From the NCBI GenBank assembly GCA_019359045.1, contig JAHHIA010000003.1:62001-126000 (forward strand): DNA of 64,000 nucleotides, read 5' to 3'. Source of the DNA: Scytolyngbya sp. HA4215-MV1. Lineage in GTDB: Bacteria; Cyanobacteriota; Cyanobacteriia; Leptolyngbyales; Leptolyngbyaceae. Numbering within the stretch: position 1 is the first letter of the stretch; every line of letters begins with the position of its first letter. Below the pieces are notes generated by a model. That model did no database searches and had not been told where the DNA came from. It worked only from the letters and a program-made list of their open reading frames with translations. The translations under genes were made by a program, and so were the position numbers. This document shows positions 11,337-48,208 of the stretch, one piece after another.

Positions 11337-13178
11337 GTGAATAAACGGTGGAGAAACGCTGGACTGTATGCCCTGCTAGCGATCGTTGTTATCGCCTTGG
11401 CAACAGTATTTTTTGAGAACAAGCCTCAAGCAGCTAATCCCTTGAGATATAGCGACTTCTTAAGCAAAGTTGAGAGTAAGTCGATTGATGCGGTCAGAGT
11501 CAGTGCGGATCGTACGCAAGCCGATGTCACTGCTCAAGACGGTACAAAATATCATGTCAACTTAATTCCGACAGATTCCACCCTGATCGATACATTGACT
11601 CGTAATGGTGTTGATATTGCAGTTCGTCCTCCCAGCGATGATGGCATCTGGTTTAAGGCGCTGAGCGGTTTGTTTTTCCCCGTTTTGTTGCTGGTTGCTT
11701 TGTTTTTCTTACTCCGACGCGCACAAAATGGACCGGGTAGCCAGGCGATGAACTTTGGCAAATCAAAAGCCAGAGTGCAAATGGAACCTCAAACCCAGGT
11801 CACGTTTGGTGATGTTGCTGGAATTGAGCAGGCAAAGCTTGAGTTGAGCGAAGTTGTAGACTTCCTCAAAAACGCCGATCGCTTCACTGCAGTAGGAGCG
11901 AAAATTCCCAAAGGTGTTTTGTTAGTAGGACCTCCGGGTACTGGAAAGACCCTGCTTGCCCGTGCGGTAGCAGGAGAAGCTGGTGTTCCTTTCTTCTCGA
12001 TTTCAGGTTCTGAGTTTGTTGAAATGTTCGTAGGTGTGGGTGCTTCTCGTGTACGCGACTTATTTGAGCAAGCGAAGTCAAACGCACCTTGCATCGTATT
12101 TATTGATGAAATTGACGCGGTTGGTCGTCAACGAGGCGCAGGTCTCGGCGGCGGCAACGACGAACGCGAGCAGACATTGAACCAGCTGTTGACTGAGATG
12201 GATGGGTTTGAAGGTAATACTGGCATTATTATTATTGCTGCAACAAACCGTCCAGACGTTTTGGATGCTGCGTTGTTGCGTCCCGGTCGTTTCGATCGCC
12301 AGGTTGTGGTCGATCGCCCTGACTTTGCAGGTCGTTTAGAAATTCTCAACGTCCATGCTCGCGGCAAAACGTTGTCCAAAGATGTGGATTTGGAGAAGAT
12401 CGCCCGTCGGACGCCAGGTTTCACAGGAGCTGACCTGTCAAACTTGCTGAACGAAGCCGCAATTCTGGCAGCCCGTCGCAACCTGACTGAAATCTCGATG
12501 GATGAGGTCAATGATGCGATCGATCGGGTGCTGGCAGGGCCCGAAAAGAAAGACCGTGTAATGAGCGAAAAGCGTAAGACGCTGGTTGCCTATCATGAGG
12601 CAGGGCACGCACTCGTAGGCGCTTTGATGCCTGACTATGATCCCGTTCAGAAAATCAGTATCATTCCTCGCGGTCGCGCCGGTGGCTTGACCTGGTTCAC
12701 TCCCAGCGAAGATCGAATGGACTCAGGTCTGTACTCTCGGTCTTACTTGCAAAATCAGATGGCAGTGGCATTGGGGGGTCGAATTGCTGAAGAAATCATC
12801 TTTGGCGAGGAAGAAGTCACGACTGGCGCATCCAATGACCTGCAACAAGTTGCCCGAGTGGCTCGCCAAATGGTAACCCGCTTTGGGATGAGTGATCGAC
12901 TAGGTCCTGTTGCACTAGGACGTCAGCAAGGCAACATGTTTCTAGGCAGAGATATCGCCGCTGAACGCGATTTTTCTGAAGAGACGGCTGCTGCGATCGA
13001 TGATGAAGTGCGTAACCTGGTTGAGCAAGCATACCGTCGGGCAAAAGCGGTGCTGATCCAAAACCGCACGATTCTAGATGCACTCGCGCAAATGCTAGTG
13101 GAGAAAGAAACCGTTGATGCAGAAGAACTCCAAGACTTGTTAGCTGTAAGCGATGTGAAAGTTGCAGCCTTAGCATAG
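11337..13178 (+). CDS. ftsH: ATP-dependent zinc metalloprotease FtsH (FtsH3-like paralogue)
   Basis: 613 residues. Membrane-anchored AAA+ protease that degrades damaged thylakoid or plasma-membrane proteins as a hexamer. Two membrane helices at about 8-26 and 112-127 flank a lumenal/periplasmic domain. Walker A GPPGTGKT is near 198-205, followed by Walker [16 protein letters not shown] and the second region of homology. The zinc-binding HEAGH is at residues 420-424 and [10 protein letters not shown] follows. The GTG start at 11337 is supported by AGGAGG ten bases upstream. The N-terminus [14 protein letters not shown] resembles the cyanobacterial FtsH3 type from memory. A terminator follows at 13216. 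Confidence 0.95.
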
Positions 13179-14081: not shown

Positions 14082-15281
14082 CTATGTTCCTGAGTGAGGG
14101 TGATCATGGTGAGAATGATCATGGGCGTGGCGATCGTGGGAGTGATGATGCGAATGCACATGTTGTAGGTGCTGATCCCGACCTGGTTTTGCCGCAATTG
14201 ACATCTCTGTCATGAGCGCCTCAATTTGAGGATTTGCCCACTCCGCTGCCATTTTCAAGAAGGCTGGATGGTCGTTGACGCAATCCATGCGTACATAAGT
14301 CACGTGAGGAGCTTTACGTCGTAATGCCTCGATGATGTGGTCAACATCCAAAAGGGTTTCGTGATTTTCGGTGGCAAACCCAATCGGCATAAAGACGACC
14401 GCGGTTGCGCCCAGATCAATCAGGTTCTTCGCTGCCAATTCAGCATGAGGTTGAGTCCATTCAATTAAGGGAGTTTGGTGATTGAGCCAGCCCACGGAAA
14501 TCAAAGGATACTTATTGATTAACTTTTCTCGTACCCGTTCATAAAGCGCCTGACTTTCATCAATCCCCGAAGTAAAGCCTTTTGCTTTGTGCGGACAACC
14601 ATGGTTCATCAATACAATCCCACTCTGAGAAGGGAGATGTGCCACGGCTAAATCTGTCTTAATCCGCTCTTCGACCAGAGTCGCCATCAAATTAATATAG
14701 TCAGGCTCGTTATAAAAAGAAGGGATGTAACGAGTTCCTTTGACCCAATATTCTGCCTGATCAGACAACTCTGCAAGAGATTTATTGACTTGTTCGACCG
14801 CAATTCCACTGGTAAAAATGGAGTCTACAACCAATAAGGGATAAATTAATAGTTTGTCGAATCCCTGTGCTTTAATTTCAGTTAAAACTTGTTTAGGCAA
14901 GAAAGGTGCACAAAAGTTAAAGGCTTTGAATACTTGTACACGATCGCCCCATTTTTCTTGCAACCATTGCTCAATTCCCGCTCTTTGTCGTTCAAAAATT
15001 GCATTATGGGGAGAAATGAAATGATCATGTTGATGGCTCCATTCATGGAGGTCGAATACTGCCAACAGTTTTGCCAGAGGAGGATAAATCCAAGTAGGAA
15101 CTGGCGCAAACTTTGCCGTCAATAAATTGAGTGCTTGTTCATTGTAGTTCGCGAAATCTTCGTAGCTTTCTACTTCGCCATAACCCATCAAGAGCACAGC
15201 CACACGATCGGACTGAGCAGTCTTATTTGTAGTAGATTCTTGCAATTTTTCTGGAGTAGCGACCACAATACTCACCTTCAA
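14082..15281 (-). CDS. Ferrochelatase-like chelatase with a histidine-rich C-terminus
   Basis: 399 residues. The body has the class II chelatase pattern of ferrochelatase: VAVLLMGYGEV at the start, FISPHNAIFERQRAGIE, and YPLLVVDSIFTSG. The active-site His region is LMNHGCPHKAKGFTSG and the active-site Glu region is GFATENHETLLDVDH, compared with the usual FSAHG and SEHIETL motifs. The last 29 residues contain 14 histidines alternating with Ser and Asp, which would bind divalent metal. It is clearly divergent from the usual HemH and lacks the chlorophyll-binding-type C-terminal helix of cyanobacterial HemH. The substrate (iron, cobalt or nickel; porphyrin or another tetrapyrrole) is uncertain. 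The start may be the TTG at 15281 or the GTG at 15275. Confidence 0.75.
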   Translation of the reverse strand: MKVSIVVATPEKLQESTTNKTAQSDRVAVLLMGYGEVESYEDFANYNEQALNLLTAKFAPVPTWIYPPLAKLLAVFDLHEWSHQHDHFISPHNAIFERQRAGIEQWLQEKWGDRVQVFKAFNFCAPFLPKQVLTEIKAQGFDKLLIYPLLVVDSIFTSGIAVEQVNKSLAELSDQAEYWVKGTRYIPSFYNEPDYINLMATLVEERIKTDLAVAHLPSQSGIVLMNHGCPHKAKGFTSGIDESQALYERVREKLINKYPLISVGWLNHQTPLIEWTQPHAELAAKNLIDLGATAVVFMPIGFATENHETLLDVDHIIEALRRKAPHVTYVRMDCVNDHPAFLKMAAEWANPQIEALMTEMSIAAKPGRDQHLQHVHSHHHSHDRHAHDHSHHDHPHSGT

Positions 15282-15615
15282 ATTCGTTGGTGGATAAAAG
15301 ACTGAGCAACGTTCAGAGATTAAACCAAAGTCATGATTGAAGTAGAGTTTTTAAAGGGGCAATTGCGGATCGCGATGAAAAAGCATCACCAGACCTTTTT
15401 GTATTCCCTAAAAGCCCCCAAAAAACTTGAGTCTGCTTTGGTGTCCGTAAAGCAAATCACGAACAATCTAAGAAAACCTTTTGAGTTTTCTACAAGAACT
15501 TTTTAAATTCTCTGAGAACTGTTTACAGGGTAGCATCCTCCCTAGTGGGATGCAGGCACATCCTAATGATTTCTAGCAATTTCCCAATTGCCCTCGTCCC
15601 AAAGGTCGATTTTTG
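15282..15615. other. Divergent intergenic region, no gene seen
   Basis: 334 bases between the divergent ferrochelatase-like gene and the hydrolase. It is moderately AT-rich. A small hairpin GCATCC...GGATGC (15533-15553) lies about 60 bases before the hydrolase start. It probably holds promoters for both genes; no recognisable operator was found. Confidence 0.5.
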
Positions 15616-16191
15616 ATGACGATCGTGCTCTGTCCAGGAATACACGAACCCACCTTGAGCCAAAGTTTTTTGACTCAATTACGACGTAGCTGGGCGATCT
15701 CGACAGAGCCATTTCCCCACACCTGTCTAGTCTTTCCATCTGAGCACTATCCCGCCTATTCAGGGTTTCATATCTTACAGTTTTTGCAAAGACAACAGGT
15801 AAGTCATGCTCATCCGCTGATTTTGATTGGTTTCAGTGCGGGGGTGGCAGGAGCGATCGCCACTGCTTGGGCATGGCAAGCTCAGGGAGGAAGGATAAGG
15901 GCGCTGATCGCCTTAGATGGTTGGGGAGTGCCACTCTATGGCGATTTCCCGATTCATCGAGTGAGCCACGATGCTTTTACCCACTGGAGTTCAGCCTTAC
16001 TAGGCAGTGGCGAAAGTAGTTTTTATGCAGACCCTCCGATCGGGCATTTAGAGCTGTGGCGATCGCCCCAAACCATCCAAGGGTGGGAAATTTCTGATTC
16101 TCTGCATCCTACCCGTCGAGCAACTACGGCTGCCACTTTTTTAACTGCCCTAATCCGACGTTATCGCAACAATTTTGTGAGCTATAAGTAA
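15616..16191 (+). CDS. Small alpha/beta-hydrolase-like protein
   Basis: 191 residues from the ATG at 15616. It opens with a beta strand and turn, TIVLCPGIHEP, and has a nucleophile elbow LIGFSAGVAGAIA (G-x-S-x-G) near residue 75. IRALIALDGWGVP follows, as expected for the strand after the nucleophile. A late histidine that could complete a triad is in PPIGHLELWRSP. No named family was recognised; similar short proteins occur as cyanobacterial hypotheticals. It has no signal peptide, so it is probably cytoplasmic. It is followed on the same strand by an MFS transporter 138 bases on. Confidence 0.7.
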   Translation: MTIVLCPGIHEPTLSQSFLTQLRRSWAISTEPFPHTCLVFPSEHYPAYSGFHILQFLQRQQVSHAHPLILIGFSAGVAGAIATAWAWQAQGGRIRALIALDGWGVPLYGDFPIHRVSHDAFTHWSSALLGSGESSFYADPPIGHLELWRSPQTIQGWEISDSLHPTRRATTAATFLTALIRRYRNNFVSYK

Positions 16192-47770: not shown

Positions 47771-48208
47771 CTAAGGTGCATTTGGATTTGCTTGAGCGAT
47801 CGCAAGGGTCACCACTCCCGCAACTCGATCTATCCGAAAGATTTGCTTAGTAACCAACAATTTTGTCCTAAGCGCAGTCGGATCAACCGGGCTTCGCTCC
47901 TTGGACTCATTCGCTGCCAAAATAGCTGCGGCTTCTGCCACACTGCCCGTATCCACAGCAGTTCTCACTTTGCCGCAAGGGTTAGGCACCTGAACCAGCT
48001 TTAATTGATCTGACGAATAAAAAATTAAGCGGAGGTTACGATCGTGGCAGAACGATCGCAACCCCGTTTCGTTGGCTTTTAGGTCGATCGTCGCCATCCC
48101 TGCGATCTCAGCTTCTGACAGATGATGTTCTCGAAAAACAGTTTGAATTCCCAGCTCAATCACCTGTCTAGAGGTGCCCTTACCACAGCCCAATCCGACC
48201 CACAACAC
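47771..48208 (-). CDS. Cobalamin biosynthesis CbiG C-terminal domain protein (CobE-like)
   Basis: 145 residues from a GTG at 48208, only three bases after the ndhB stop. The pattern VGLGCGKGTSRQVIELGIQTV, ATIDLKANETGLRSFCHDRN, VDTGSVAEAAAILAA is that of CobE or the C-terminal domain of CbiG, which opens a ring in the cobalt precorrin pathway of vitamin B12. The N-terminal CbiG domains are missing, so it is a stand-alone C-domain as in CobE. Co-transcription with ndhB is likely, without a known functional link. Confidence 0.85.
   Translation of the reverse strand: MLWVGLGCGKGTSRQVIELGIQTVFREHHLSEAEIAGMATIDLKANETGLRSFCHDRNLRLIFYSSDQLKLVQVPNPCGKVRTAVDTGSVAEAAAILAANESKERSPVDPTALRTKLLVTKQIFRIDRVAGVVTLAIAQANPNAP

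Follow-up and report, generated by a model that had tools for sequence, protein, structure and literature searches.

A His-tailed, ferrochelatase-like protein family of cyanobacteria that is separate from HemH and co-occurs with a small alpha/beta hydrolase

The window, a stretch of 64,000 nucleotides from Scytolyngbya sp. HA4215-MV1, carries on its minus strand a ferrochelatase-like open reading frame at positions 14082-15281, an interval in which plus-strand frame 1 is full of stops. A sequence-only reading of this DNA had drawn attention to the frame and had counted 14 His among the last 29 encoded residues, a count that proves exact. Translation probably does not begin with the TTG at 15281 but with the GTG at 15266, since the orthologs open with MVATPEK... 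at a GTG that lies behind a GAGG-like ribosome site. The chelatase gene therefore probably spans positions 14082-15266 and encodes 394 amino acids. Residue numbers used throughout (H222, E303 and others) are counted from this GTG; in the numbering of the 399-residue frame, the NHG motif corresponds to residues 226-228 and ENHETL to residues 305-310. The features of the locus, including a divergently oriented hydrolase gene and an inverted repeat between the two genes, are compiled in Table 1.

Table 1 Features of the chelatase-hydrolase locus (positions within the window)
Feature	Position	Strand	Remarks
Putative chelatase gene, His-tailed, ferrochelatase-like	14082..15266	minus	GTG start at 15266, 394 aa, stop 14082-14084; PF00762 135 bits
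His-rich tail, final 29 codons, 14 His	14085..14171	minus	
NHG with catalytic-type His H222 (GTG-start numbering)	14598..14606	minus	His invariant in 46/46 sequences of A1
ENHETL with catalytic-type Glu E303, flanked by Asn and an additional His	14352..14369	minus	Alignments A1 and A2
Inverted repeat, operator-like, consensus YATCCCCNNNNNGGGGATGYTA	15531..15552	minus	2 mismatches in the window; support from orthologs
Promoter-like element of the extended -10 type, TGCTACCCT, sharing bases with the right arm of the repeat	15527..15535	minus	Read from sequence
Small alpha/beta hydrolase, divergent, co-occurring partner	15616..16191	plus	

We scored the window protein against profile libraries and compared an AlphaFold model of the chelatase body (pLDDT 85.4, pTM 0.85) with known structures. 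In Pfam, the protein matches PF00762 (Ferrochelatase) at 135.3 bits (cut-off 27) over positions 2-313 of the 317 profile positions, and CbiX at 24.3 bits (cut-off 22); these two chelatase families are the only ones matched by hmmscan. PF00762 is matched by all 46 members of alignment A1. The NCBIfam hemH equivalog TIGR00109 is missed (87.3 bits against a cut-off of 124.6 bits), and the CbiK model gives 15 bits against a cut-off of 400. Sirohydrochlorin nickelochelatase models match 15-16 of the 46 A1 members, matches that probably stem from the His-rich tails, since the tail-trimmed window protein gives none. In structural alignment, the modelled body reaches Z 31.2 with human ferrochelatase (3.1-3.3 A over about 327 residues), Z 30.4 with CpfC from Listeria (LmCpfC) and Z about 28.5 with CpfC from Bacillus (BsCpfC), whereas the sirohydrochlorin chelatases SirB, CbiK and CbiX reach 19.9, 18.6 and 16.2, respectively; Foldseek likewise ranks HemH and CpfC chains far in front. 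As judged from the model, the nearest fold of the body is that of ferrochelatase and not that of the sirohydrochlorin chelatases. CpfC proteins also provide the top PDB sequence matches of the window protein, although identity in the structural alignment is 18-19% and CpfC is not known to have a His tail.

The distal His/Glu pair of ferrochelatases is retained in this body. H222, E303, W270, S85 and P86 are invariant over the family and canonical HemH (A1, 46 sequences), and in an alignment with Bacillus CpfC, H222 and E303 coincide with its distal His and Glu. Within the family, Y29, N117, C119, N221, H222, E300, N301, H302 and E303 are invariant (alignment A2, 19 sequences); Y29 stands at what we take, by motif position, to be the place of the proximal Tyr of CpfC. 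The sequence-only reading had described NHG and ENHETL as altered active-site regions, and the alteration is real and conserved in both alignments. Canonical sequences read MRYWHPF, FSAHG and SEHIETL at the matching stretches, and in the columns of A1 the Arg of MRYWHPF is replaced by N117, the Tyr ahead of the GGGSP loop by H80, the His of SEHIETL by N301 and its Ile by H302. The altered Arg, Tyr and His of the pocket are presumably R164, Y123 and H341 in human numbering. For LmCpfC, PMC7340540 describes a site composed of a proximal Tyr12 and a distal His182/Glu263 pair, together with Arg/Tyr propionate contacts. Judging by these alignments, the pair required for metal insertion looks intact, while the surrounding pocket positions differ.

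We further determined how the protein relates to the canonical ferrochelatases of the same genome and of other cyanobacteria. The search for a second canonical hemH, proposed in the sequence-only reading, yields two genes of the CAB type in the window genome (G000; C16:316682-317635 and C31:431877-432833), which score 416.8 and 404.3 bits compared to 135.7 bits for the His-tailed gene. The EXXNXR motif of the CAB domain is readable in both encoded proteins (L001 and L002) and absent from the His-tailed protein, which is 23-27% identical to seven cyanobacterial HemH sequences. The His-tailed gene is found in 44 of 58 searched genomes and is absent from 14; according to the match table, a canonical HemH match is present in all 44. 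We calculated a tree of 34 rows containing 17 tailed rows including the window protein, the more distant homolog L143, five rows of a paralog group described below and 11 HemH rows (seven from cyanobacteria, two from haloarchaea, one from an alphaproteobacterium and one from E. coli). In this tree, the family is split from the 11 HemH rows by a branch of 8.64 changes per column with a support of 100/100, while its relation to CpfC and the position of the root are unsure because long branches meet there and the tree holds no CpfC row.

Given the two canonical hemH genes, the missed equivalog cut-off and the separate, very long branch, the His-tailed protein is, at the level of sequence, not the HemH of the cell, in line with the doubt already voiced in the sequence-only reading that it duplicates HemH. 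The outcome named there as a refutation, a clear place within canonical HemH in a genome that has no other hemH, is thus not what the data show. It shares with cyanobacterial CAB-type HemH, the protoporphyrin ferrochelatase, the fold class and the His and Glu positions, but differs in lacking the CAB tail, in the changed Arg, Tyr and His positions of the pocket and in forming a separate clade. A second heme ferrochelatase isozyme, acting on protoporphyrin or coproporphyrin in particular circumstances, for example in the dark or when iron is limiting, and aided in iron loading by its tail, would fit the ferrochelatase fold (Z about 31), the retained His/Glu pair and the presumed CpfC-like Tyr at the proximal position. 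This explanation appears rather unlikely to us in view of (i) N117, H80 and N301 at the pocket columns that hold Arg, Tyr and His in canonical sequences, (ii) the score under the hemH cut-off and the length of the branch, (iii) the presence of canonical HemH in 44 of 44 gene-bearing genomes and (iv) the close co-occurrence with a hydrolase, which heme synthesis does not need.

A second group of ferrochelatase-like paralogs (L142 and L144-L149), 49-54% identical and without a His tail, is present in scattered genomes. Its members carry FYFCQPF or a near variant, TVHGGP and mostly TENYET. A search of plasmids gave matches in 14 records in all, of which one is a paralog of this kind, from Nostoc sp. 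UHCC 0926 (51.9%), and the remainder are matches of 22-27%.

Across the phylum, matches at E <= 0.001 are found in 202 of 386 genomes, many of which are merely HemH-like (E about 1e-14 to 1e-26). The family is present in most other listed members of the class and is absent from the listed f2 genomes, which are small and which we infer to be those of photosynthetic picocyanobacteria, and from several other genera. A search of named genomes returned 443 relatives, and the 80 that were kept are cyanobacterial by title. In the 58-genome search, the body shows 70-84% identity to that of the window protein in most other families, and over many cyanobacterial families the whole range is 70-85%. Sequence comparison thus places the protein in a conserved cyanobacterial family that is distinct from HemH and spread widely in cyanobacteria.

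Among 80 chelatase loci, some of which stop early at contig ends, 48 have the gene of the small hydrolase less than 4 kb from the chelatase gene and divergent from it; in none of the 48 does it lie on the same strand. To follow this association beyond the locus, we used a sample of 80 genomes, consisting of the 58 searched for the chelatase and 22 without it that were hand-picked across genera. Of the 44 chelatase-bearing genomes, 43 give a hydrolase match, G015 being the lone exception, and none of the 36 genomes without the chelatase has an intact copy. Among the 43 matches, the frame is interrupted in G008 and G039 and is split over two contigs in G050. Two genomes without the chelatase, G229 and G312, contain stop-ridden hydrolase remnants, and since G229 also holds a chelatase fragment of 74 residues, both genes have decayed there. 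Within the 43 genomes, the two genes are divergent within 1.5 kb in 27, 2.8 kb apart in one and far apart or on other contigs in 15; linkage alone is therefore insufficient to account for the co-occurrence. The genes are likewise adjacent and divergent at the locus of L143.

We mapped the changes of both genes onto a HemH tree that covers 65 of the 80 genomes, namely those with listed hemH coordinates. The chelatase requires 9 changes on this tree (shuffled mean 18.0) and the hydrolase 10. Nine independent pairs are obtained over all branches and three on supported branches. Averaged over 200 pairings, the hydrolase followed the chelatase in 3.0 of the 3 supported pairs and in no case behaved in the opposite way, with a median p of 0.25 in a sign test that cannot reach 0.05 with three pairs.

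The model of the hydrolase (pLDDT 94.5) shows a minimal alpha/beta hydrolase fold with Z 15.6 to the thioesterase TesA and Z 13.7 to a Bacillus lipase, and S74, D101 and H144 are invariant in 34 sequences. The Pfam family Thioesterase is weakly matched by 8 of these 34 members (best E 1.7e-6); the window copy reaches 16.3 bits against a cut-off of 26.4, with no family over the cut-off in Pfam and no match in NCBIfam. By its modelled fold, the protein appears esterase- or thioesterase-like; the fold is a generic one, and it is through the chelatase that the hydrolase may be connected to a tetrapyrrole. An esterase- or thioesterase-like partner with invariant S74, D101 and H144, together with the alteration of those pocket residues that contact the porphyrin in HemH, would also suit a dechelatase or breakdown enzyme, which takes Mg out of a chlorophyll derivative, or Fe out of heme, with the hydrolase taking off a side-chain ester and the tail catching the released metal. 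The listed f2 genomes lack the chelatase, however, and the six of them that were tested lack the hydrolase, so that a general step of chlorophyll metabolism is excluded, and nothing in the sequence indicates the direction of the reaction; we regard this possibility as improbable.

For the promoter survey, we used 108 non-redundant regions out of 129 upstream regions, each 400 bases long with starts set by script. A loose palindrome, ATCC-N9-GGAT-N-Y-T, is present in 53 of the 108 regions (dinucleotide-shuffle mean 0.06), and in 49 it is joined to an extended -10 element, TGYTANNYT (dinucleotide-shuffle mean 0.0). The 55 regions without either form include the Nostocaceae-like ones and many of the Microcoleus-like ones. 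The exact form, YATCCCCNNNNNGGGGATGYTA, occurs in 24 of 97 genomes with one site each, while a control with the reversed pattern occurs once in 97. All 24 exact sites lie upstream of the chelatase gene and in its orientation, including that of L188, where the chelatase frame is interrupted and the site was placed by gene coordinates. Judged by these counts, the palindrome is nearly unique per genome and near gene-specific. The copy in the window lies 265 bases ahead of the GTG and 64 bases ahead of the hydrolase start. Taken by itself this copy is not beyond chance, as sites with at most 3 mismatches occur in 25 of 100 shuffled 64-kb windows (mean 0.26), and two further sites with two mismatches are found in the window genome, the same number as for the reversed control.

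Several candidate explanations of the palindrome were considered and not adopted. A regulator of the CsoR/InrS type fits the GC-rich palindrome only loosely; PF02583 is present in 41 of the 44 gene-bearing genomes but also in 14 of the 36 that lack the gene, and two genomes, G001 (82% complete) and G037, have the exact palindrome and no CsoR match. An RNA element is disfavoured, with no Rfam match at the gathering threshold between positions 13000 and 16500 and with a start site, as implied by the extended -10 element, that would fall downstream of the palindrome. For a wider regulon, a relaxed symmetric pattern searched in 35 genomes gave 24 sites at the chelatase gene and 8 others in 7 genomes. 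Of these 8, two lie beside genes for DUF3120 in genomes of different families (G432 and G051), and most others lie in or at reading frames; a symmetric copy at L287:1561 (G016) is located between the genes of a Crp-like regulator and an MFS transporter. DUF3120 was rejected as a specific partner, being present in 78 of 80 genomes and accompanied by the palindrome at 1 of 30 loci, that of G051 itself. DUF3120 (PF11318) is a membrane protein (L280:379-1149, L286:798-1502, L187:1858-2454). Its gene adjoins the chelatase or the hydrolase in Microcoleus-like loci (for example L091 and L139) and in G046, and is unlinked in the two genomes in which it carries the palindrome. It has decayed in G229 and G312, whose genomes are reduced, and was not found in G195 and G049.

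The His-rich tail is a property of the orthologs and not of the window protein alone. The binomial chance of at least 14 His in 29 residues is about 1e-16 to 6e-13 at His frequencies of 2-3.8%, and conservation among orthologs is the stronger test. We collected 125 distinct orthologs (>65% identity to the window protein) from 162 locus copies; all 125 have at least 5 His in their last 29 residues and 115 have at least 9, with a range of 5-20. The searches of 58 and 386 genomes used as query the body without most of the tail; the query of the named-genome search included the tail, yet each of the six peptides used for searching comes from the body. In the 123 orthologs whose tail start is marked by a motif, the last 29 residues consist of 49% His, with Gly, Ser and Asp as further constituents, and Cys is present in none of these tails. 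L143 (56% identical, outside the main group), whose genome we take to be that of Gloeobacter violaceus, has no His in its tail, and the seven members of the paralog group have at most 3. These tail-less homologs show that the ferrochelatase fold can persist without the tail.

In composition, the tail resembles metal-storage tails, and such a make-up would suit a non-catalytic buffer for a metal (Ni, Co, Zn or Cu) or a tetrapyrrole, or a metallochaperone, built on a ferrochelatase body. With regard to the His-tailed metallochaperones HypB, CooJ and UreE, hmmscan gave no family besides the two chelatase ones. A comparable region is known from CbiXL, a class II chelatase that also has a His-rich C-terminal region (PMC5816740, PMC7689651); in PMC7689651, the region with the His-rich stretch is described as dispensable for cobalt insertion and is proposed to store and deliver metal. 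CbiXL differs in carrying an MXCXXC iron-sulfur motif, compared to the Cys-free tails of the present family. A buffer or chaperone would leave unexplained that N117, H222, N301, H302 and E303 are invariant (A2) in a body of 70-84% identity, which points to a selected active site and not just to a carrier for the tail, and that the tail-less L143 retains this site; it is, in our estimate, of low probability.

The sequence-only reading had also suggested insertion of cobalt or nickel and had taken a stand-alone CbiG domain in the window as a sign that cobalamin synthesis is present. The domain is indeed there, as a C-terminal CbiG domain at 47795-48205 on the minus strand in a frame of 146 aa; in many other cyanobacteria, it lies in a frame of >600 aa. 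The argument built on it finds no support in the distribution of CbiG. Matches to CbiG occur in 40 of the 44 gene-bearing genomes and in 22 of the 36 others, so genomes with CbiG can clearly do without the gene. Of the four gene-bearing genomes without a CbiG match, three are only 82-87% complete and one, G055, is a complete single contig. The sole CbiX/SirB-type chelatase found in the window genome (G000:C15:388897-389478, L140; frame of 300 aa) is without a His tail and adjoins a frame that by eye resembles a uroporphyrinogen methyltransferase. A cobalt or nickel chelatase of the cobalamin or an F430-like pathway, for which the CbiXL-like tail, the presence of CbiG beside a CbiX/SirB-type gene that has no such tail and the greater frequency of CbiG alongside the gene could be cited, is ruled out as the main reading by the CbiG distribution and, with a fold and profile of ferrochelatase and not of CbiX, CbiK or SirB, is very improbable.

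A subset of cyanobacterial ferrochelatases with a His-rich C-terminus and without a CAB domain, previously neither identified nor studied, is mentioned in PMC8529089 (J Biol Chem 2021). The window protein has the features given there for this subset, being a cyanobacterial ferrochelatase homolog with a His-rich C-terminus, no CAB domain and the catalytic His kept, and the family described here is presumably the same subset. The sections of PMC8529089 that treat the subset are silent on coexistence with HemH, the changed pocket, the hydrolase partner and the palindrome. While the subset as such had thus been noted in passing (PMC8529089), the hydrolase partner and the palindrome are new here. 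Our literature search, with most subscription journals outside its scope, brought up no paper on the pairing with the hydrolase or on the palindrome, and no member of the family with an experimentally determined activity, metal or substrate.

Metal insertion into tetrapyrroles in cyanobacteria is usually described in terms of HemH, Mg-chelatase and CbiX/SirB. The comparisons of sequence delineate a separate, deep clade that coexists with HemH, conserves the distal His/Glu pair, carries the His tail throughout its main group and co-occurs with the hydrolase, which is of the serine-hydrolase type by sequence; roughly half of the orthologs also show the near gene-specific palindrome at the extended -10 promoter element. 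The reading that we tentatively favour, and consider quite possible, is that of a divergent class II metal chelatase with a ferrochelatase fold and a metal-loading tail, whose tetrapyrrole substrate is shared with the hydrolase. In such an enzyme, (i) the flexible tail would gather a divalent metal and hand it over, (ii) the His/Glu pair of the active site would deprotonate the tetrapyrrole and pass in the metal, (iii) the substrate would be a modified tetrapyrrole other than protoporphyrin IX on which the hydrolase also acts, (iv) the hydrolase would cleave, for example, an ester or thioester, either ahead of the metal insertion or following it, and (v) a dedicated regulator would act on the chelatase gene via the palindrome.

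Extended to the whole group, the chelatase reading leads to a more speculative proposal, which we consider somewhat unlikely as it stands: most non-picoplanktonic cyanobacteria, back to a Gloeobacter-like lineage, would possess a hitherto undescribed two-enzyme tetrapyrrole step under a dedicated regulator, in which the serine hydrolase trims a side chain and the His-tailed ferrochelatase paralog inserts or removes a metal outside the route to protoheme, yielding a metallo-tetrapyrrole new to these organisms or its breakdown product. The existence of a second, deeply separate family, which has a partner of its own and in many cases a promoter element as well, suggests that the name ferrochelatase conceals a distinct function. 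The pairing of chelatase and hydrolase, which offers a clean gene pair for knock-out studies, hints at a new step in the handling of metal-containing pigments.
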